41,356 bases of DNA, taken from contig CAMOXU010000009.1 in NCBI GenBank assembly GCA_946629525.1, forward strand, positions 1-41,356. Reading direction: 5' to 3'. Position numbers and translations under genes: made by a program. This document shows, one piece after another, positions 31,528 to 41,235 of the stretch. The notes under the pieces were generated by a model that ran no database searches, was not told where the DNA came from, and saw nothing but the letters and a program-made list of their open reading frames with translations. Source of the DNA: an uncultured Clostridia bacterium (GTDB taxonomy: Bacteria > Bacillota > Clostridia > Lachnospirales > Lachnospiraceae). The number at the start of each line of letters is the position of its first letter. Position 1 is the first letter of the stretch.

Positions 31528-31550
31528 GAGGAGAGCAGGGATCGGATGAG

Positions 31551-31583
31551 AGGCTGCCGCACGAGTTGCGGCGGCCTTTTTTT
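31551..31583 (+). terminator. Rho-independent terminator after the mini-GT2 gene
   Basis: GGCTGCCGCA and TGCGGCGGCC form a GC-rich stem around CGAGT, followed by seven T and CTTT. Confidence 0.88.
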
Positions 31584-31630: not shown

Positions 31631-31841
31631 GGGGTACTCTCCGCTCCTGTAAGCGGGGGAAGGACCAGTATCCTGCGCTGCAGGCCGAAATTGTACCGAA
31701 TCGAGAGCATCTGAATCTGCACTGGTAATTTACCTCTGAACAGTCTAAGATAAAGATAGCGGCATATGCGCAGTCCGAGGATGCTTCGCACCCTGTGCGG
31801 CAGAGACACAGAGACGTTCATGAGACACCCGACAACGATCG

Positions 31842-31847
31842 TATAAT
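31842..31847 (+). promoter_or_regulatory. -10 element of the Xre-HD gene
   Basis: A perfect TATAAT hexamer 46 nt upstream of GTG 31888 and 47 nt before ATG 31894. A weak -35 (TTCATG) lies 19 nt upstream of it. Confidence 0.5.
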
Positions 31848-31893: not shown

Positions 31894-32742
31894 ATGCAGA
31901 TAAACATGGGTGACCGCATTATAAGACGACGAAACCAGCTCAATATGACAAGGAAAATGCTCTCCGAGGTACTCAATGTTCCGGAGGATACCGTTCGGTC
32001 CTGGGAAACAGACGAGACGCTTCCGGCGACGGAAATGCTTTCGAGGATCTCCATCGCACTGAATACAAGCGTCAGCTATCTGATGGGAGAGAGCGCTCCG
32101 CGGGAGGTCCGCTGGAAGCTCAAGGAGCGCCTGTTCTCGGAGGACGCGATGTTTACGTACATTCTGAATGCCTGTACGGGGCTCGGGATGCAGCAGGCCG
32201 TCGACTCCCTTCACTTTATGCAGAAGAGCCACAGCGGACAGTACCGCAAAGGCACGCAGCATGTTCCGTATATCAATCATCCTCTCCTCATGGCCTGTCA
32301 GGCCTTCGCACTCCATATCGCGACAGATGATCTGATCTCCGCGATCCTCCTGCACGACGTCGTCGAGGACTGCGGCGTATCCCCGGAGGAGCTTCCCGTA
32401 AATGAGGAGACGCGCCATGTGGTGGAGCTCCTCACCTTTAAGATCCTTCCGGGCCTGACGCGCAGAGAATCCAAAAAGATTTATTTTGACAGGATCGCGG
32501 AGAACCGGACGGCGACGATGGTCAAGGTGCTTGACCGCTGCAATAATATTTCCGGGATGGCGACCTGCTTCACAAGCCAGCGGATGGCGGACTACATTGA
32601 CGAGACGGAAAAGTATGTCATGCCGCTCCTCGATAAGCTGAAGTATACCTATACCGAGTACAATGACGTGTCTTTTCTGCTGAAATATCATATGAAGAGC
32701 GTTCTTGAGACGATCAAGTTCATGCTCTCGGAAAATAAATGA
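31894..32742 (+). CDS. Xre-type helix-turn-helix protein fused to a SpoT-like HD (putative (p)ppGpp hydrolase) domain
   Basis: A 282-aa protein. ATG 31894 has GAGAGGG 8 nt upstream; the in-frame GTG 31888 is too close to it. Residues ~5-65 are an Xre/Cro HTH (DRIIRRRNQLNMTRKMLSEV, then SWETDETLPATEMLSRISIA). Residues ~95-265 match the HD hydrolase domain of RelA/SpoT and MESH1 enzymes: SLHFMQKSHSGQYRKG, VPYINHPLLMACQAFA, ISAILLHDVVEDCGVSPEEL and MVKVLDRCNNISGM, which together supply the H, HD and D metal ligands. No synthetase, TGS or ACT domain is present. All the catalytic-looking residues are intact, so hydrolysis of (p)ppGpp or a related nucleotide is plausible; ligand-controlled DNA binding is an alternative. 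It starts the 31.9-38.9 kb plus-strand series, with TetR next. Confidence 0.82.
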   Translation: MQINMGDRIIRRRNQLNMTRKMLSEVLNVPEDTVRSWETDETLPATEMLSRISIALNTSVSYLMGESAPREVRWKLKERLFSEDAMFTYILNACTGLGMQQAVDSLHFMQKSHSGQYRKGTQHVPYINHPLLMACQAFALHIATDDLISAILLHDVVEDCGVSPEELPVNEETRHVVELLTFKILPGLTRRESKKIYFDRIAENRTATMVKVLDRCNNISGMATCFTSQRMADYIDETEKYVMPLLDKLKYTYTEYNDVSFLLKYHMKSVLETIKFMLSENK

Positions 32743-33455: not shown

Positions 33456-34820
33456 ATGAATCAGATCAATGTGGCAGTCTCAGTCTTTGCCCTGCTCACC
33501 ATGGTGATTATTCTCGCCAACATTACGCTTGAAGAGAGCAGACGGAAAAGTGTATCAGCCTATTTCAGGATGACGGTCAGCGCGGATATTCTGATGCTCG
33601 TCACGGTCATCATCATGTGGCTTGTGATCGATTCCGGAAAGGCTGCCGTGAGCGGGGGATACCTTCTCCTGCTCCGTATACTTGAGAGCCTTGTAAATGT
33701 ATTCTATTACATGGTCCTCTGTTTCTATGCATTTTATGTCTTCGAGGTCTGCTCGGAATATCATCCGGTCCCGCCTGATCTCTACTATCTCATTGTCGCC
33801 GTATGTATCGTCGAGGCGGTGGCGTGGACCATTTCCAGCTTCAATGGTGCGATCTTTACAGTGAGCCTGGAGGGAATGGATCCCGGTCCGTATTATCTGA
33901 TCGGCCAGCTGGGCGGCTACATCGTCGCGGCCGTGACCCTCGTCATGATCCTGTACAACAGCAGGGCGATGGGGGCATCGAGCGCGATCGCCATGCTCTC
34001 ATTCATCTCTGCACCGCTTTTTGCCGCTCTGATCCGCGGCAGAAGCAGCATATCCCTTGAACTCATGCCTCCGGCGGTCAGTCTCGCGCTGCTCATCACG
34101 TCGAATTTCATTTACATGAGAGAAGTTCGGAAAGCCTACGAACTTGAGAAAAAAATGTCAGACGAGCGGATCATGCTCATGATGAGCCAGATGCGCCCGC
34201 ATTTCCTCTATAATGTGCTCAATTCGATCTATTATCTGTGCGAGAAGGATTCGGAGGCGGCGCAGAAGGCCGTCGGAGACTTTGCCGAGTATCTGCGGAC
34301 GAATCTCGACAGCCTGGAGAAGGAGCGGGAAGTCGAATTTTCGGAGGAGCTCAGCCACATCCGGCGCTATCTGAGCCTTGAAAAGATGCGCTTTGAGGAT
34401 GAGCTGCAGGTCGAGTACGATATCCGCGCCACGGATTTCCGGATCCCTGCGCTCACGCTTCAGCCCCTCGTTGAAAATGCGGTAAAGCACGGTATCACCA
34501 AGAAGGAAGGCGGCGGGACCGTGCGGATCTCGTCCTTCGAAAAGAGGAATTCCTTCGTGGTCACGATTGAAGATGACGGCGCGGGATTCGACACGAACCG
34601 GCTCTCCGAAAGCGGAAGCAGGGAAAAGGAAGGGCGCGCTCATATCGGTATCCGGAGCGTCGAGGAACGCCTCAGGACGGTCAGCCATGCAAAGCTTCTG
34701 ATCCAGAGCCGCAAGGGGATCGGGACGATCGCGACGATCACGATCCCGAAGAACAGGATGATTAAATTTGGGGAAATGAATGGAACTAAAGAGTCGAAGA
34801 GTCGCCGAAAGAAACGGTGA
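33456..34820 (+). CDS. Orphan LytS/YesM-type sensor histidine kinase
   Basis: A 454-aa membrane kinase. ATG 33456 follows GAAAGGACG; the longer frame overlaps the TetR gene out of frame and was excluded. Residues ~1-215 hold six or seven transmembrane helices with short loops (VSVFALLTMVIILANITLEE, VNVFYYMVLCFYAFYVFEV and so on), no large extracellular sensor. The cytoplasmic part has the His_kinase (LytS/YesM) signature MMSQMRPHFLYNVLNSIYYL (~242-261), with the phospho-accepting His, followed by HATPase_c: N box LQPLVENAVKHGI (~334) and G boxes EDDGAGFD and HIGIRSVEERL. No response regulator gene adjoins it. The last 41 nt overlap the LRR gene, so both are made together. It probably senses membrane or a small hydrophobic signal through its helices. 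Confidence 0.93.
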   Translation: MNQINVAVSVFALLTMVIILANITLEESRRKSVSAYFRMTVSADILMLVTVIIMWLVIDSGKAAVSGGYLLLLRILESLVNVFYYMVLCFYAFYVFEVCSEYHPVPPDLYYLIVAVCIVEAVAWTISSFNGAIFTVSLEGMDPGPYYLIGQLGGYIVAAVTLVMILYNSRAMGASSAIAMLSFISAPLFAALIRGRSSISLELMPPAVSLALLITSNFIYMREVRKAYELEKKMSDERIMLMMSQMRPHFLYNVLNSIYYLCEKDSEAAQKAVGDFAEYLRTNLDSLEKEREVEFSEELSHIRRYLSLEKMRFEDELQVEYDIRATDFRIPALTLQPLVENAVKHGITKKEGGGTVRISSFEKRNSFVVTIEDDGAGFDTNRLSESGSREKEGRAHIGIRSVEERLRTVSHAKLLIQSRKGIGTIATITIPKNRMIKFGEMNGTKESKSRRKKR

Positions 34821-35688
34821 GTACGCGGAAATAACAGGCGGGACCGGAGTCGGAAAGATCCTTCAGATACCGGAAGAGATCGACGGGCTGCCGGTCCTGT
34901 CCGTCGCAGGGCACGCATTTGAGAAATGTAAGGAGATCGAGGAGGTCGTTCTTCCGGACAGCGTACGGCAGGTGGGCGGGTTCGCATTTTACGGATGCGG
35001 AAAGCTCAGAAAGATCAGCTTGAGCGACTATACGGAGGGGTGGGGAAACGGAGTCCTGCGCCTCTGCGATTCGCTCGCCCATGTGGAATTCCGGGTCCGG
35101 AGAGGGAGATATGCCATCCTCATGGATCTGCTCGCGGGCGTTGACTGCAGGCTGTATGTGACGATCGTGGAGGGCAGCAGGAAGACGGAGCTCTACTTTC
35201 CGGCCTATGTGCGCGGCTTTGACGAGGATACGTTCGCGCGGGCGATCCACTCGTGGATCGAGGGCGCCGGCTATGCGTACAGGGAGGCCGTGCAGCGGAA
35301 AGGGGTAAGCCTGAGGAATTACGACGCCCTCTTTTCACGGGCGCGGGGAGAGGGCACGGAGAGCGGGGCACGGGTCGCGCTCTCGAGGCTCATGTACCCG
35401 AAGGAGCTCCGCGAGGAGATGAAGACGGAATACGAGAGCTATCTCAGGGAGAATGCGGAGGACGTGATCCGCATGCTCCTCGCCGTGCGCTCGATCGATG
35501 AGCGGGACAGGGTATTTTTTCTTGCCGGGAACGGCCTTCTTACTCCGGAAGCCGCCGATACCGGCGCGCTGCTCTCCTCCGGGATGCGGGACGGCGAGAT
35601 GACGGCCCTCCTTATGTCCTGCGGGAGACGCGGAGAGAAGGACAATACGGATCCCGGCGGGGATCTCTTTGACCTGGGAGACCTGTGA
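34780..35688 (+). CDS. Cytoplasmic LRR_5 (BspA-like) protein
   Basis: A 302-aa protein whose ATG lies inside the end of the kinase gene, preceded by GGGG. No signal peptide or membrane helix is visible, so it is cytoplasmic, unlike surface BspA proteins. Residues ~25-110 hold two to three LRR_5 units of the Treponema-type repeat: LQIPEEIDGLPVLSVAGHAF, VVLPDSVRQVGGFAFYGCGK and following LRKISLSD. Residues ~130-290 are helical (ELREEMKTEYESYLRENAED, RMLLAVRSIDERDRVFFLAG) and unrecognised; the tail is acidic (DPGGDLFDLGDL). In a set with VWA and MoxR-like proteins it may act as an adaptor or recognition subunit; this is inference from order only. Confidence 0.82.
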   Translation: MELKSRRVAERNGEYAEITGGTGVGKILQIPEEIDGLPVLSVAGHAFEKCKEIEEVVLPDSVRQVGGFAFYGCGKLRKISLSDYTEGWGNGVLRLCDSLAHVEFRVRRGRYAILMDLLAGVDCRLYVTIVEGSRKTELYFPAYVRGFDEDTFARAIHSWIEGAGYAYREAVQRKGVSLRNYDALFSRARGEGTESGARVALSRLMYPKELREEMKTEYESYLRENAEDVIRMLLAVRSIDERDRVFFLAGNGLLTPEAADTGALLSSGMRDGEMTALLMSCGRRGEKDNTDPGGDLFDLGDL

Positions 35689-35703
35689 GGAGAGGGAAGA
35701 GGA

Positions 35704-35787
35704 ATGATATCGCAGCATTATGCATTTTGCCCGGCTTCGAGCATGAGAAGAAAGGCATTGGAATTCTGCTGTAAAAACTGCGGATGA
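35704..35787 (+). CDS. Tiny Cys-rich ORF (27 aa), possible zinc-ribbon fragment
   Basis: The ATG is preceded by GAGGAGAGGG and the 27-codon frame reads MISQHYAFCPASSMRRKALE then FCCKNCG. The HY-x-FCP and C-x-x-C-G pattern resembles the start of a zinc ribbon found before some Nudix domains. The stop TGA overlaps an ATG (ATGA, 35784-35787) in frame with the following VWA gene. It could be a translated small peptide coupled to that gene, or the remnant of a larger Zn-ribbon protein. The 110-nt gap is otherwise empty. Confidence 0.35.
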   Translation: MISQHYAFCPASSMRRKALEFCCKNCG

Positions 35788-35798
35788 GGGATAGAAAG

Positions 35799-37154
35799 AT
35801 GAAAGCCACCGACGCACTCAGGGAGGCAGGGGAAAAAATCATCAATGAGGTGAGGACAGAGCTCTATCTGTCCCTGCCCTTCATGGGACCCGCGATGGAC
35901 GCGCTCCCCTGGATCCCGGACCGGACGACGCTCTCGCTCGGCACGGATGCGCAGTTCCTGCGCTGCAATCCACGTTTTCTGATCGACCGTTATCTGGAGG
36001 ATCCGGACAGTTTGCCCCGGGTCTATATGCATGTGCTCCTGCATTGCCTGTTCCGCCATATGTACGGGATGCCGGAGGGCGGAGATGTCATCCTGTGGAA
36101 TCTGTCCTGCGATATCGCAGTCGAGTCGGTCATGGATTCGATTGAAAACGCGCCGGCTGTCACCAGAGTCGTGCCGGATGCCCGCAGGGAGGTCTACGAC
36201 AGGCTTGGCTCCGCCATGAAGACATTCACAGCCGAGAGGATCTACCGGTATCTTACGGAGAACCGGCCGCAGGGCGGGGAGGAGGAGAAGCTCTGCCGGC
36301 TCTTTCTTGCGGATGATCACAGCTTCTGGGAGGAGATGCGAAACAAAGAAAAGGACGGCGGCAGCGGAGAGGACAGAGAGGACCGTACGTCCCGGGAATT
36401 TCAGAATGCCCTGCGCGAGGCCTGGAAGGCGAGATCGGAACGCCTCCAGGACGAACTGCTTTCCCTCGGATCGGAGCGCGGCGCCGGCGTGGGAGATTTT
36501 GTCCGGGTGCTTGCGGTGCAGAACAGAAAGCGGGTGAGCTACCGCGACTTTCTCCGGCGCTATGCGGTGGTCCGGGAGGAGGCGAGGGTCGACCCGGACT
36601 CCTTCGACTACGGATTCTACAACTACGGGATGGAACTGTACGGGAATCTTCCGCTCATCGAGGAAAATGAATACCGTGAGTCCAGAAAAGTCGAGGAACT
36701 GGTGATCGCGATCGATACCTCCGCATCCTGCCAGGCGGAGCTGGTCGAAAAGTTCCTCAGTGAGACAGCGGCTGTTCTTGAGAGCCAGGAGACCTTCTTC
36801 CACAGAATGGACCTCCGCATCATCGAGTGCGACGATCAGGTGCGGAAAGATATAAAGATACGGTCTCCGGAGGATATAAAGGCTTTTATGGACGCATTTG
36901 AAGTCCGCGGAGGGTACGGTACGGATTTCCGGCCGGTCTTCGCCTACATAGACCGTCTTCAGAGCGAGGGAGAACTCAAAAATCTGCGGGGACTCCTCTA
37001 TTATACGGACGGATTCGGCATTTATCCGACCCATCCGACACCCTACGAGACCGTATTCGTCTACCGGAAGGACGATGCGTTCGAAGACCGGCAGGCCCCG
37101 GCCTGGGCAGTCCGGCTGTATCTAACCGATTCGGACGGGATGGAAGCACAGTAA
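35799..37154 (+). CDS. VWA-like protein with N-terminal putative metallopeptidase domain (DUF2201 type)
   Basis: A 451-aa cytoplasmic protein. ATG 35799 has GAGGG 8 nt upstream; ATG 35784 in the same frame overlaps the small ORF's stop and is also possible. The N-terminal half resembles the DUF2201 metallopeptidase-like region: YMHVLLHCLFRHMYGMPEGG (~75-94), where HxxxH stands in for HExxH (the Glu is replaced by Leu), followed by WNLSCDIAVESVMDS. A charged linker (EKDGGSGEDREDRTSREFQN) leads to a VWA-like C-terminal half with MIDAS-type LVIAIDTSASCQAELVEKFL (~302-321) and RGGYGTDFRPVFAYIDRL with the conserved Thr-Asp. Members usually pair with a MoxR AAA ATPase, as here. The missing Glu argues against classical peptidase catalysis. 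Confidence 0.88.
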   Translation: MKATDALREAGEKIINEVRTELYLSLPFMGPAMDALPWIPDRTTLSLGTDAQFLRCNPRFLIDRYLEDPDSLPRVYMHVLLHCLFRHMYGMPEGGDVILWNLSCDIAVESVMDSIENAPAVTRVVPDARREVYDRLGSAMKTFTAERIYRYLTENRPQGGEEEKLCRLFLADDHSFWEEMRNKEKDGGSGEDREDRTSREFQNALREAWKARSERLQDELLSLGSERGAGVGDFVRVLAVQNRKRVSYRDFLRRYAVVREEARVDPDSFDYGFYNYGMELYGNLPLIEENEYRESRKVEELVIAIDTSASCQAELVEKFLSETAAVLESQETFFHRMDLRIIECDDQVRKDIKIRSPEDIKAFMDAFEVRGGYGTDFRPVFAYIDRLQSEGELKNLRGLLYYTDGFGIYPTHPTPYETVFVYRKDDAFEDRQAPAWAVRLYLTDSDGMEAQ

Positions 37155-37282
37155 GGCGGCAGAACACTGCGTGGTGACCGGGACGCCGGCGACGGAAAAA
37201 TGTATGCCGCAGCGAGGCAGCACTCTGCGGAATGACCGGAATTCAGGGAGCATTGCCGGCTGCTGTCATGAAAGGAACATCT

Positions 37283-38932
37283 ATGAATATCAGAGAAGCA
37301 AAAGAAGAAATCATCCGCACAGTCCGTGCATACCTGCAGAAGGATGAGCTGGGCACCTATGTGATCCCGCCGGAACGGCAGCGGCCGGTCCTTCTCATCG
37401 GGCCGCCCGGGGTCGGCAAGACAGCCGTCATGCGGCAGATCGCGGAGGAAATGAACATAAACCTCGTCTCCTATACGATCACGCACCACACAAGGCAGAG
37501 CGCGATCGGTCTTCCCTTTATTGCGAGAAAGGAATACGGGGGCGAGGAGCATGCGGTCACCGAGTATACGATGAGCGAGATCGTCGCGTCTGTCTATGAC
37601 CAGATCGAACGCTCCGGGATCCGGGAAGGGATCCTGTTCCTCGACGAGATCAACTGCGTGTCCGAGACGCTCGCACCGACCATGCTCCAGTTCCTGCAGT
37701 ACAAGATGTTCGGAACCCACAGAGTGCCGGAAGGATTCGTGCTTGTCACGGCGGGGAACCCGCCGGAGTATAACCGGTCTGTACGGGATTTTGATATCGT
37801 CACGCTGGACCGCGTGAAGAGGATCGACGTCACGGCGGACTTCCCGGTCTGGAAGGAATATGCCTATCGGGCCGGGGTCCATGGCGCAGTCACTGCTTAC
37901 CTGGAGATCAGGAAGGAGCATTTTTGCAGAGTCACGAACGATCCGGACGGCAGGCACTTTGTCACGCCCCGCGCCTGGGAGGACCTGTCGGATTCTCTTC
38001 GGGTCTATGAATCACTTTCGCTGCCTGTCGGACAGGACCTTATCGCCGGATTTATACAGGATCCGGAGGTCATGAAATCCTTTTCGGTCTATTATGAGCT
38101 CTGGAATCGCTATCGAAGCGTATACCGGATCCCGGATATCCTCGAGGGAACGGTCTCCGGGGGAGAGGAGAGCCTTAAGGGAGCGGCATTTGACGAGAAG
38201 CTCAGCCTGATCGGCCTTCTGATCTCCGCGCTTGGGGCGGAGTTCATGCAGGCGGATACCCGGAAGGAAGTACAGAGAGAACTCTTCGGCATCGTGAAGG
38301 GAATCCGCGACGATCTGCGGCGGGAGCGGGATGCGGCAGGCTCCGGAGCAGGGGAGGACGGTACACCCGGACAGACGATGGGAAGGACGGAGAAGGCTGA
38401 TGCACCGGAAGGAAATATGAGCGGCAGGGCGTCTGCTGCAGAAGGCCCTGAAAGCACCCGGAGATCTGTCCCCGACCGGATCCGGAGTGCATCCAACGAA
38501 CTTCGGAGAGAGGTCAGTGCGAAGAGGGCGGCACGCATGCTTCCCCGCGGGAGGGAGAGAATTCTTCTTATGACAGTCCGCGCGCTGGATGAGCTTGCGG
38601 AGAAGGTCGCGGGAGAAGGGAGCGGCGATGCCGCGCAGGATTACGGGCGCATGCGGGATCTCTTCGCGGAGCGGGAGGCGGAACGGAAGGCATTCGTCCA
38701 GAGGACGGGGGAGAAGCTTGAGAATGCATTTCATTTTCTCGCGGAGACCTTCGGGGAAGGTCAGGAGATGGTGGTCTTCCTCTCAGAACTCTCCGCCTCC
38801 CCGTACGCGATGAAGTTCATTCAGGAACACGGGAGCCCGGAATATGACCGCCAGAGCAGGCTGCTCCTGCTGAAGGACCGGAGACAGGTTCTCCGGGAGG
38901 AGCTCTTTTCCCTGTCCGGTGAGCTGGAGTGA
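37283..38932 (+). CDS. MoxR-like AAA+ ATPase
   Basis: A 549-aa cytoplasmic protein. ATG 37283 follows GAAAGGA; an upstream in-frame ATG has no site. Residues ~30-230 are a MoxR-type AAA module: Walker A VLLIGPPGVGKTAVMRQ (~36-52), Walker B ILFLDEINCVSETLAP (~115-130), sensor 1 LVTAGNPPEYNRSV (~152-165) and an arginine-finger-like segment LDRVKRIDVTADFPVW (~174-189). The C-terminal ~200 residues are a helical, partly low-complexity extension (GEDGTPGQTMGRTEKADAPE) with a final coiled coil. It follows the VWA gene by 128 nt, the reverse of the usual AAA-VWA order. MoxR/VWA pairs act as chaperones inserting cofactors or remodelling complexes. The role of this set, with LRR and kinase, is unknown. 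Confidence 0.9.
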   Translation: MNIREAKEEIIRTVRAYLQKDELGTYVIPPERQRPVLLIGPPGVGKTAVMRQIAEEMNINLVSYTITHHTRQSAIGLPFIARKEYGGEEHAVTEYTMSEIVASVYDQIERSGIREGILFLDEINCVSETLAPTMLQFLQYKMFGTHRVPEGFVLVTAGNPPEYNRSVRDFDIVTLDRVKRIDVTADFPVWKEYAYRAGVHGAVTAYLEIRKEHFCRVTNDPDGRHFVTPRAWEDLSDSLRVYESLSLPVGQDLIAGFIQDPEVMKSFSVYYELWNRYRSVYRIPDILEGTVSGGEESLKGAAFDEKLSLIGLLISALGAEFMQADTRKEVQRELFGIVKGIRDDLRRERDAAGSGAGEDGTPGQTMGRTEKADAPEGNMSGRASAAEGPESTRRSVPDRIRSASNELRREVSAKRAARMLPRGRERILLMTVRALDELAEKVAGEGSGDAAQDYGRMRDLFAEREAERKAFVQRTGEKLENAFHFLAETFGEGQEMVVFLSELSASPYAMKFIQEHGSPEYDRQSRLLLLKDRRQVLREELFSLSGELE

Positions 38933-39164
38933 GCTCCCGTGAGGTACAGCGTTCCGCGGACGCCCGGAAGAAAAAAGGCTCCTGCGGAACTTCGTGTGGA
39001 ATGAAATTGCTCCTGTGGTTTTCGCGCAGCACACAGTTTCGCGATTGCTCCGGAAGAATAAAATTGTAAGGAATGTTTGTAAAATTTGCTCAGCCGTTGT
39101 ATGATAATAGTGAGTATTTGTGGGCAGTATTCTGTATTTTTACAGTTTTTCCGGGTGGGAGATA
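38933..39164. other. Intergenic region with weak repeat match and promoter
   Basis: Contains a weak family 1-like segment GCACACAGTTTCGCGATTGCTC (39028-39049) and a reverse-oriented GAAGAATAAA similar to the family 2 left end. The promoter at 39077-39105 leads to the GGDEF-EAL gene. No coding sequence. Confidence 0.5.
39077..39105 (+). promoter_or_regulatory. SigA-type promoter of the GGDEF-EAL gene
   Basis: -35 TTGTAA (39077-39082), 17-nt spacer, -10 TATGAT (39100-39105), in an AT-rich stretch. Predicted start is about 50 nt before ATG 39165. Confidence 0.7.
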
Positions 39165-40868
39165 ATGAAAATCACTGAATATACATACGAAGAAATGCAG
39201 CGTTTCCTCGACGTGATGAGCGGCATCTATTCATCACTTCGTCTGGTCGATCCGAGAGAGTGCAGGGAGGTCCTGCTCACGGGAGATGGGAAGCTCTCTT
39301 ATGGAGAGAGCTGCTTTTCCATATGGGGAAAGCAGAAGAGATGCAATAACTGCAGCAGCTATCGCTCCGGGCAGAGCGGCCAGCGCTTCATCAAGGAGGA
39401 GCCGTATGAGGATGAATTTATCACGGTCCAGTCTGTCCCTGTCCGGCTGCGTCTGGACAGCGGAGAGGTCCTCAGTCTCGTCCTTGAGCTTTTGATGGCT
39501 CATGGGGAGGATACCGGAGCCAGAGTCGTTTACACCGGAAAAGAGGAGCCTCAGGATGAGGAGATTTATGCGGATCATGCGGTCACACACGATCTCCTGA
39601 CAAGACTCTACAACCGGGAAGGCTTTTACATGGCTGTCCGCCGTGCGCTTGCGGATCATCCCGCGGAGCCGTGGTATATTCTTGTCGTCAATATCCGCCA
39701 TTTCAAGCTCCTGAACAGTCTTTTCGGGAAGGAGAAGGGCAACGAGGTTCTTCTCGACATTTCTTCCGCGCTCACCGGCGGCTGCGGAAGAGGAGCGGTC
39801 TGCGGACGACTGGAGAGCGATCATTTTGCTGTCTGCATGCACAGGTATGAGTTCAGTGAACGGCGCATGTCCCGGATGATCAGGGATATCGAGAACCGCT
39901 TTGACAGCAGTGTTTTCAGTCTGCATATTCACATGGGTGTGTACGAGGTCAAGGACCGCTCGATCGCGGTATCCGCCATGTGCGACCGCGCGAATCTGGC
40001 GATCCGGTCGATCGAGAACAGCAGCGAGCGGAGCATTGCATTTTTCACGGAGGAAATGCTCTCGGAAATGCTGAAAGAGCAGCAGGTCGTGAGCAGCTTT
40101 GAGAAGGCCATCGGCACAAAGCAGATCAAACTGTTCCTGCAGCCGGTCTTCGATCTGGAAGGGAATGCGGTCGGTGCCGAGGCGAGGGCCCGCTGGGTCA
40201 AATCGAACGGGGATACGCTGAAGCCCGATGACTTCAGGGAAATTCTTGAAAAGACGGAACTGATCGCGCGCCTCGACGAGAGCGTCTGGGAGCTGGCGAT
40301 CAAAATGCTCCACATCTGGAAGGAGCGCGGACGGGATGATATCCAGATCTCGGTCAAGATCTCCGGGCAGGATTTCTTCTACATCGACGTCGCGAGATCC
40401 ATCACCAATATGGCGCGGTGGTATGGCGTGAGCCCCGAGAATCTGCACCTTGATATCACCGGCATGGCGATGCTTGCCGGCTACCGGGAGATCCTCCGGT
40501 CGATCAGCCGTCTCCGCCGGGAAGGATTCAGTGTCGGCATCGACGAGTTCGGGGCCGGATTTACATCTCTCGGGATCCTCAGGGACGTGAAGGCGGATCG
40601 GCTGCGGCTGAATATGGACTTTATCGAGGGCAGCGAGATCGGCTATCGCGGCGAGATCATCCTCAATTCGATCGTCGGTCTGGGCCGCGAGCTCGGTATG
40701 AAGGTCCTTGCGAGCGGAGTGGAAAATGAAGAACAGAGGAAGCTCCTCACGGAAATGGGGTGCAACCTTTTTGAGGGATCTCTTTTTGCAAATCCGATGA
40801 CAGCCAACGAGTTCGAGAGGAAGTACGTGAGGAAGGAAGAATCTTCTGCGGAAGAATCTTTTCATTGA
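39165..40868 (+). CDS. Degenerate GGDEF-EAL protein with N-terminal PAS-like Cys domain
   Basis: A 567-aa cytoplasmic protein; ATG 39165 follows GGGTGGGAGATA. Residues ~1-125 are a PAS-like domain with a Cys cluster (CFSIWGKQKRCNNCSSY), a type frequent in clostridial signalling proteins. Residues ~145-305 are a GGDEF domain in outline (HDLLTRLYNREGFYMAVRRA) whose active site reads RLESDHF instead of GGDEF. Residues ~315-560 are an EAL domain in which EAL is EAR (GAEARARW), the Asn of SVNxS is Lys (SVKIS), the E-x-T-E block is DITGM, and the EGVE Glu is Ser (ASGVEN); the DFG loop is DEFGAGFTSL. Key metal ligands are therefore lost in both domains. It is probably a c-di-GMP or protein-binding module without cyclase or phosphodiesterase activity. 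It precedes the STAS gene, which has its own promoter. Confidence 0.9.
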   Translation: MKITEYTYEEMQRFLDVMSGIYSSLRLVDPRECREVLLTGDGKLSYGESCFSIWGKQKRCNNCSSYRSGQSGQRFIKEEPYEDEFITVQSVPVRLRLDSGEVLSLVLELLMAHGEDTGARVVYTGKEEPQDEEIYADHAVTHDLLTRLYNREGFYMAVRRALADHPAEPWYILVVNIRHFKLLNSLFGKEKGNEVLLDISSALTGGCGRGAVCGRLESDHFAVCMHRYEFSERRMSRMIRDIENRFDSSVFSLHIHMGVYEVKDRSIAVSAMCDRANLAIRSIENSSERSIAFFTEEMLSEMLKEQQVVSSFEKAIGTKQIKLFLQPVFDLEGNAVGAEARARWVKSNGDTLKPDDFREILEKTELIARLDESVWELAIKMLHIWKERGRDDIQISVKISGQDFFYIDVARSITNMARWYGVSPENLHLDITGMAMLAGYREILRSISRLRREGFSVGIDEFGAGFTSLGILRDVKADRLRLNMDFIEGSEIGYRGEIILNSIVGLGRELGMKVLASGVENEEQRKLLTEMGCNLFEGSLFANPMTANEFERKYVRKEESSAEESFH

Positions 40869-40875
40869 AAGGTGT

Positions 40876-40903
40876 TTGCAAATTTCGTAAAACAAGGTAT
40901 ACT
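40876..40903 (+). promoter_or_regulatory. SigA-type promoter of the STAS gene
   Basis: -35 TTGCAA (40876-40881), 16-nt spacer, -10 TATACT (40898-40903). It starts right after the GGDEF-EAL stop codon, so the STAS gene can be made independently. Confidence 0.8.
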
Positions 40904-40938
40904 TGAATAGGATCATAGACTGATTATGGAGGTTCATC

Positions 40939-41235
40939 ATGACAATAAATAAGACCGTTGAAGGCGGAAAGCTTATAATTGCTCCGGAAGGAAGACTTGA
41001 TACCATGACATCACCGCAGCTCGACGCGGAACTTGACAACTCCCTTAAGGGAGTCAGCGAGCTTGTATTTGATTTTGCGGGTCTTGATTATATTTCATCC
41101 GCCGGGCTCCGTGTCCTTCTTAAGGCTCAGAAGGCTATGAACAGGCAGGGAAGCATGGTCATCCGCAATGTCAGTGATGAAATTCGTGATATTTTTGATG
41201 TGACAGGATTCCTGGATATCATGACGATCGAATAA
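40939..41235 (+). CDS. STAS-domain anti-sigma-factor antagonist
   Basis: A 98-aa single-domain cytoplasmic protein with TGGAGG before the ATG. It has the SpoIIAA/RsbV layout: LIIAPEGRLDTMTSPQLDAE (12-31), ELVFDFAGLDYISSAGLRVL (41-60) including the conserved phosphorylatable Ser region, and a C-terminal VSDEIRDIFDVTGFLDIMTI. In the partner-switch mechanism the unphosphorylated form binds an anti-sigma kinase and releases a sigma factor or other target. No kinase (RsbW/SpoIIAB type) or PP2C phosphatase gene is present in this window, so the partner is encoded elsewhere. Its low GC relative to flanks is slight. It ends with a terminator pair. Confidence 0.93.
   Translation: MTINKTVEGGKLIIAPEGRLDTMTSPQLDAELDNSLKGVSELVFDFAGLDYISSAGLRVLLKAQKAMNRQGSMVIRNVSDEIRDIFDVTGFLDIMTIE

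Follow-up and report, generated by a model that had tools for sequence, protein, structure and literature searches.

A gene at positions 31894 to 32742 of a 41,356-nucleotide stretch of DNA (hereafter the window, contig CAMOXU010000009.1 of assembly GCA_946629525.1, from an uncultured Clostridia bacterium of the Lachnospiraceae) encodes a 282-residue protein in which an XRE-type helix-turn-helix (HTH) domain is followed by a RelA/SpoT-type HD domain. We lean, by a little more than an even chance, towards regarding this HTH-HD protein and its relatives as small alarmone hydrolases (SAHs) with a DNA-binding domain of their own, each acting as a dedicated, alarmone-coupled regulator of its own promoter. 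Judged from sequence, they are a variant of SAHs that is also, in most members carrying the common recognition helix, a predicted autoregulator, and no description of such a variant was found in the PMC literature searched. The fusion is a real, recurrent architecture that appears patchily in gut Clostridia, and the preliminary description of this DNA, which placed HTH domains outside the RelA/SpoT architecture, is corrected in this respect by its recurrence in samples of the family, the order, and the genus.

Domains and active site of the HTH-HD protein

The open reading frame begins with the ATG at 31894 and its stop codon ends at 32742 on the + strand, on which the domains, motifs, and upstream features given below for this gene are also placed, with an alternative GTG two codons 5′ of the ATG. 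The XRE (HTH_3) DNA-binding domain covers residues 4–66 (31903..32091), of which residues 10–63 match HTH_3 (PF01381) with an E-value of 2.2e-10, above the Pfam cut-off, and the domain has the P22 c2-like fold of an XRE regulator. Its recognition helix, residues 31–38 (31984..32007), is also a helix in the AlphaFold model and reads EDTVRSWE, as opposed to the common form FQAVSSWE. The HD domain occupies residues 96–282 (32179..32739), and a Pfam scan of the protein returned only HTH and HD families of note, with no RelA_SpoT synthetase domain. Relative to the two closest relatives, L001 and L002, the ratio of nonsynonymous to synonymous substitution rates (dN/dS) is 0.058 and 0.093 for the whole gene, 0.079 and 0.131 for the HTH part, and 0.046 and 0.072 for the HD part; these low values indicate that purifying selection acts on both halves.

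Pfam by itself misses the HD domain in the window copy, because the match of HD_4 (PF13328) to residues 106–167 (E 1e-4, 22.5 bits) falls below the cut-off of 27.2. The spoT_relA model TIGR00691 matches residues 106–261 (E 2e-11), well under its whole-protein cut-off, as expected for a protein with a single one of its domains. Among solved structures, those most similar in sequence are Thermus Rel (2.2e-11) and chain 3nr1 of human MESH1 (4.6e-10), and both the AlphaFold model and sequence profiles group the HD domain with SpoT, Rel, MESH1, and SAHs. The fold comparison re-aligned the top 1000 matches of Foldseek, and statements on it refer to the 50 entries listed. RelA/SpoT HD is thus the closest of the HD families by profile and, among the matches listed, by fold, and no unrelated HD family scored best on either check. 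Accordingly, the preliminary claim of an XRE-type HTH joined to an HD domain with the hydrolase positions is borne out by the HTH_3 match, the profiles, and the motifs it quoted, all of which are present (KSHSGQYRKG at residues 111–120, ILLHDVVEDCG at 151–161, and VKVLDRCNN at 210–218), together with two further conserved motifs, YINHP (126–130) and DETE (236–239).

Conservation of the active site was assessed in two sets of homologs. The first comes from a search of 84,980 species genomes with short peptides as seeds, HDVVEDCG among them; of the 476 stretches found, the best 80 were kept, a choice that favours full-length copies. The second, unseeded set comprises 48 distinct sequences retrieved from whole genomes by profile or protein search; the window's gene (L088) is one of them, and the two sets have some genomes in common, with the upstream DNA of L232 and L233 being that of L001 and L002. 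Gene calls at the loci follow a longest-open-frame heuristic that is wrong at some of them. An alignment of 72 rows (A2) leaves out the stop-bearing loci L012, L027, L032, L038, and L062 and some partial loci, and a smaller one of 26 rows (A1) excludes L012. In the 80 loci plus the window, H113, Q116, R118, H129, H154, D155, E158, D159, K211, D214, R215, N218, and E237 are invariant (81/81), which is partly by construction given that HDVVEDCG was a fetch seed for the 80 loci. In the HTH domain, R13, W37, E38, and P44 are likewise kept in 81 of 81 aligned sequences.

The unseeded set gives similar counts. H113, Q116, and R118 of the motif HSGQYRK (residues 113–119; 32230..32250) occur in 47, 44, and 48 of the 48 sequences, and H129 of YINHP (32269..32283) in 47. 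For H154, D155, E158, and D159 of LHDVVEDCG (residues 153–161; 32350..32376), the numbers are 48, 47, 46, and 44, and for D214 and N218 of KVLDRCNN (residues 211–218; 32524..32547), 45 and 48. All ten of these positions are kept together in 42 of the 48, that is, in 33 of 36 full-length sequences (window included) and 9 of 12 that lack the HTH. When the window's HD domain is aligned to Rel, the columns of the catalytic positions coincide; we take H129, H154, D155, and D214, E158 and D159, R118, and N218 to be the metal ligands and catalytic residues. The domain therefore looks like one of RelA/SpoT/MESH1 type with recognised catalytic positions, and the protein is a predicted hydrolase.

Distribution of the family and its predicted operator

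The record titles of the 80 best loci are mainly those of Lachnospiraceae, other Clostridia, and Erysipelotrichaceae, many from the rumen or gut. Relatives were detected in 13 of 120 sampled genomes of the family (seven best matches full-length and six to the HD part only), in 16 of 392 of the order (13 full-length), and in 18 of 42 of the genus, each sample containing the window's own genome. The distribution is patchy and at times multi-copy, with up to five matches per genome in the genus sample. HTH-less copies of the same HD subfamily exist in the sampled genomes and branch off at several points of the family tree. When that tree is built from 47 HD segments, the six HD-only rows need five changes, all five of them forced by well-supported branches, which implies repeated loss, or gain, of the HTH; loss seems the more likely direction. 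In this tree, L011, with an insertion in its HTH, is not counted as HD-only, L123, a fragment with a stop, is excluded, and Rel and two viral rows form long branches.

Other arrangements of the HD domain are also found. In an HD-only relative found in G098 (L100:6160-7548, – strand), a GyrI-like small-molecule-binding domain (PF06445, over the cut-off) replaces the HTH. Two genomes of the window's genus, G508 and G522, carry an intact HTH-less HD copy followed by an HTH-HD copy with the changes E158N, D159K, and D214E (L255:5249-7146 and L256:1-1760, the G522 copy reaching the contig end). By its sequence, this pair suggests that two functions have separated, one copy remaining an enzyme and the other, its DNA-binding partner, having probably lost catalysis. 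A plasmid and a phage origin were both considered and rejected: relatives of the HD domain occur on 18 plasmid records, among them that of a Butyrivibrio plasmid whose copy lacks the HTH, and 36 phage records contain relatives as well, but no record of either kind covers 80% of the query, and matches on viral contigs (the best 80 of 316) begin at residue 41 or later. Assignment to a defence system was rejected as well, all 10 PADLOC matches being confined to the HTH part.

The regulatory half of the proposal comes from the DNA upstream of these genes. The exact dyad TCAAG-N5-CTTGA lies in the roughly 160 bp upstream of 39 of 80 homologs (window included), while the commonest five-base dyad in 20 Markov shuffles reached only 2. 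Within 700 bp upstream, the dyad is found for 69 of 73 genes with the recognition helix [FYN]QA[VI]S and for none of seven with other helices (window included), one further gene having too little upstream DNA to be counted; the association gives a Fisher p of 1e-7, with relatedness ignored and the helix classes set post hoc. Of the four common-helix genes missed, two have a site with one mismatch, and in the other two a site stands farther off, about 1.5 kb upstream. The unseeded set, in which L238 (FQTVS) was put in the common-helix class, agrees: the dyad precedes 15 of 17 common-helix genes, 0 of 19 with other helices, and 0 of 12 without the HTH. The rest of the 80 loci, 1.01 Mb in all, contains 8 sites, and among 723 control genes there are 6 with a site within 700 bp. 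Among 13 upstream regions of the other helix classes in the genus, no five- or six-base dyad recurs.

The dyad also stands in register with promoter-like elements. With the dyad at 0, TTGAAA lies at 23, TACAAT at 46, and TATNAT at 69 in most rows of common-helix promoters, and under a loose pattern 48 of 69 have a 17-bp spacer between TTGAAA and TACAAT. Either TACAAT or the TATNAT beyond it might serve as the -10 element. The dyad centre is upstream of TTGAAA, and a second symmetry resembling TTGAAA-nn-TTCAA overlaps that element. The steps from the operator through 23, 46, and 69 bp are an even 23 bp each, for example in L016 upstream of 8001.

A whole-genome scan with the pattern TCAAGYNNNRCTTGA covered 14 genomes, 12 of them with the common helix. 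The site is at the HTH-HD promoter in 11 of the 12, and the twelfth, G463, has a variant there; the 14 genomes contain 7 further sites in total, compared with 9 for a reversed control pattern. We conclude that most common-helix members are predicted to control their own promoter and nothing else at the stringency of TCAAGYNNNRCTTGA. In some loci, recurrent small genes lie between operator and HTH-HD gene, such as L048:7476-7991, L018:7534-7989, L012:7701-7991, L040:7746-7988, and L013:7586-7957. Three kinds of such genes directly precede the HTH-HD gene, forming one cluster in 11 of 80 loci and two others in 3 and 2, and the dyad precedes the small gene in 16 of 16 loci; they could be co-regulated with the HTH-HD gene. 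Eight of them gave no Pfam family above the cut-off.

Upstream region and neighbours of the window copy

The window copy is, by its sequence, a diverged family member with a different recognition helix and without the common operator. TCAAG-N5-CTTGA was not found upstream of its gene, nor does the window's genome contain it by the TCAAGYNNNRCTTGA pattern. Instead, a block at about 31700..31771 is shared by the window, L001, and L002, 97 to 277 bp from the ATG, and is a candidate control region; it is conserved although synonymous sites have diverged far (dS 0.5–1.0) between the window and these two loci. Identity is 87% over 70 bp in G522 and 90% over 61 bp in G508, with one strong match per genome, the remaining matches within the genus being short and weak. 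In the three sequences, every + frame through the block is interrupted, while two minus frames stay open, so a short gene on the minus strand may lie here. A clear palindrome was not found in the block, which contains only a weak ACTGGT..CTGAACAGT symmetry. Nearer the start codon, a sigma-70-like ATGAGA-N16-TATAAT (31820..31847; 10 of 12 positions) is a rival promoter candidate; five promoter-like sites were found in 1.5 kb, where 1.4 are expected. A hairpin followed by a T run at 31548..31580, between the upstream gene and the HTH-HD gene, resembles a terminator, weakly so, since one was found and 1.2 are expected in shuffles.

It had been suggested that the protein might control the downstream TetR-kinase-LRR-VWA-MoxR genes. 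This idea finds no backing in the loci compared, because the set is not shared beyond the closest relatives and the operator marks the family's own promoter. Among the 11 loci listed, only L002 and, as far as its contig end, L001 have the set, and the neighbours in L003–L005 differ from it. In the window, an LRR_5 protein, a DUF2201 VWA/metallopeptidase-like protein, and a MoxR-type AAA ATPase follow in a row at 34780-38932, with counterparts in L002; they are possibly a separate MoxR-VWA system. Further on, at 39120-41235, a 582-residue protein that by eye resembles a GGDEF-EAL protein is followed by a 98-residue STAS-like putative anti-sigma antagonist.

Nor do the searches for a partner support the proposal that the protein is the antidote of a toxic synthetase. 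The window's genome encodes Rel (an open frame of 790 residues) and two small synthetases, all on other contigs, and tblastn with these three detected no synthetase in the window, a search that divergent toxins could escape. By the same tblastn, a synthetase match besides the HD gene occurs in only 2 of 80 loci, L010, where it is about 6 kb away, and L077. In 18 genomes with full-length HTH-HD genes, there are 1 to 5 synthetase matches each (E up to 0.1), none of them adjoining; the nearest on a shared contig is more than 100 kb away, several of the HTH-HD genes being on short contigs. At L077, a divergent 334-residue protein (L077:3002-4006) with a RelA_SpoT domain at residues 196–253 is encoded 148 bp upstream of the HTH-HD gene, and the operator sits between the two genes. 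This class of protein occurs in 30 of 392 order genomes and is absent from the window's own; it is present in 6 of 13 genomes with the full-length fusion (one by a partial match) versus 24 of 379 others, assuming the same draw of 392, an enrichment confounded by shared genus.

Readings of the fusion and known systems

Given these observations, a scheme can be proposed for the family. The HD domain would act on (p)ppGpp, (p)ppApp, or both by removing the 3′-pyrophosphate, the XRE domain would bind the operator as a dimer, and an alarmone in the HD pocket would alter DNA binding; repression would be favoured over activation, given that the dyad is centred upstream of TTGAAA and that the second symmetry overlaps this element. 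The output of hydrolase would then track the alarmone level, and this feedback would set a ceiling on the alarmone with no regulon involved. For the window copy, the same scheme would apply by homology only, with the conserved upstream block as a candidate control region. The earlier suggestion of a regulator that destroys or reads (p)ppGpp thus stands in its general shape, with hydrolysis and ligand coupling as its conjectural parts. On this reading, the protein probably senses its substrate. A stronger version, in which these proteins form a family of alarmone-sensing repressor-enzymes, one chain binding its own promoter, reading (p)ppGpp or (p)ppApp through the RelA/SpoT hydrolase pocket, and destroying it, is put forward as a tentative possibility.

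Several other explanations compete with an alarmone-coupled autoregulatory hydrolase. The protein might be a plain SAH in which the XRE domain does no more than hold autoregulated expression at a constant level, with no signal passing from HD to HTH. XRE regulators are described as commonly autoregulatory (PMC12565409), and HTH-less copies sit at several places in the tree, 9 of 12 keeping the ten positions. On the other hand, HTH and HD remain in one chain across several families, and in two genomes the HTH copy retains an HD domain with altered catalytic residues, which is hard to square with an HD domain that has no regulatory role; we consider the plain hydrolase unlikely, though a serious contender. 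That same tandem pair, an altered HTH-HD copy (E158N, D159K, D214E) beside an intact HTH-less one, would suit a transcription factor that uses the HD domain merely as a receptor for an alarmone or nucleotide, with little or no turnover. Designs of XRE plus a sensing domain are known, for example XRE-cupin (PMC7901475), but the intact catalytic positions in 33 of the 36 full-length unseeded sequences (window included) make a receptor of this kind decidedly improbable. It may also be, though this is somewhat doubtful, that the main substrate is other than (p)ppGpp, such as (p)ppApp from rival toxins or NADPH, which would make the protein an enzyme of defence or one acting on a cofactor, a reading that partly coincides with the alarmone-coupled hydrolase. 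An orphan SAH elsewhere has been shown to act on several alarmones and NADPH (PMC9765508), and the substrate of HTH-HD therefore cannot be presumed. Against a different substrate, no toxin gene was found among the neighbours scanned with Pfam, a small sample of eight window genes and eight small upstream genes, and the tested motifs do not reveal specificity.

The XRE domain of the window's clade could be a relic that now serves structure alone, as the N-terminal XRE-like domain of hydroxypropylphosphonate epoxidase (HppE) may do. With an HTH dN/dS of 0.08 and 0.13, the four invariant HTH residues, and the conserved upstream block, we regard this as improbable. For common-helix members, the helix-matched operator at their own promoter speaks against an XRE domain of this kind. 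Finally, an antitoxin of a toxic small alarmone synthetase would be in line with the L077 homolog, which lies 148 bp downstream of the divergent RelA_SpoT-domain gene, and with the excess of this class in fusion genomes, confounded as it is by shared genus. Since the window has no synthetase match, only two loci have one (that of L010 at a distance), none adjoins in the 18 genomes, the operator separates the two genes at L077, and the window's genome lacks the L077 class, this explanation is highly improbable and largely refuted for the window.

If the alarmone-coupled autoregulatory hydrolase is correct, the fusion would be a one-gene negative-feedback device on alarmone, a DNA-binding transcription factor with an RSH (RelA/SpoT homolog) hydrolase as its ligand domain, and in at least one lineage sensing would have passed to an HTH-HD protein whose catalytic residues are altered and hydrolysis to the intact HD enzyme next to it. 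Accounts of how alarmones control transcription usually centre on RNA polymerase, DksA, or GTP levels. An alarmone hydrolase that governs its own promoter directly would amount to a minimal feedback circuit, complete in itself, acting on a central stress signal in many gut Clostridia. Concrete predictions follow from it (the operator sequence, the promoter geometry, and a naturally occurring copy whose catalytic residues are changed), and it could be of use as a genetically encoded alarmone sensor.

In the openly licensed PMC papers searched, with long result lists covered in part, no description of an HTH-fused alarmone hydrolase was found. Part of the RSH survey PMC3153485 describes hydrolysing RSHs outside the long ones as dedicated single-domain proteins, and the terms ‘helix-turn-helix’, ‘HTH’, and ‘DNA-binding’ are absent from its available text, as are ‘helix-turn-helix’ and ‘DNA-binding’ from the HD review PMC8177086 and ‘helix-turn-helix’ and ‘HTH’ from that of the XccSAH paper PMC9765508. 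Compared with SAHs such as MESH1, Pseudomonas SAH, Corynebacterium RelH, and XccSAH, the window protein is not a stand-alone HD domain and adds an N-terminal XRE domain, and most common-helix members have a matched predicted operator. It differs from the HD half of long RSHs (SpoT, Rel) in having no synthetase domain match and an HTH at the N terminus. Like XRE-cupin and P22 c2/ImmR-type repressors, HTH-HD proteins combine an N-terminal XRE with a C-terminal ligand domain and, in most members, a palindromic operator at their own promoter; unlike them, their C-terminal domain is a complete predicted hydrolase, and the operator occurs elsewhere at background level. BirA and NadR are further trigger enzymes that bind DNA, and to our knowledge neither these nor PutA acts on alarmones. 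PutA is described in part of PMC9132996 as a DNA-binding trigger enzyme. With all three, HTH-HD shares a single chain that combines enzyme and DNA-binding domain, two parts that in HTH-HD may be coupled.
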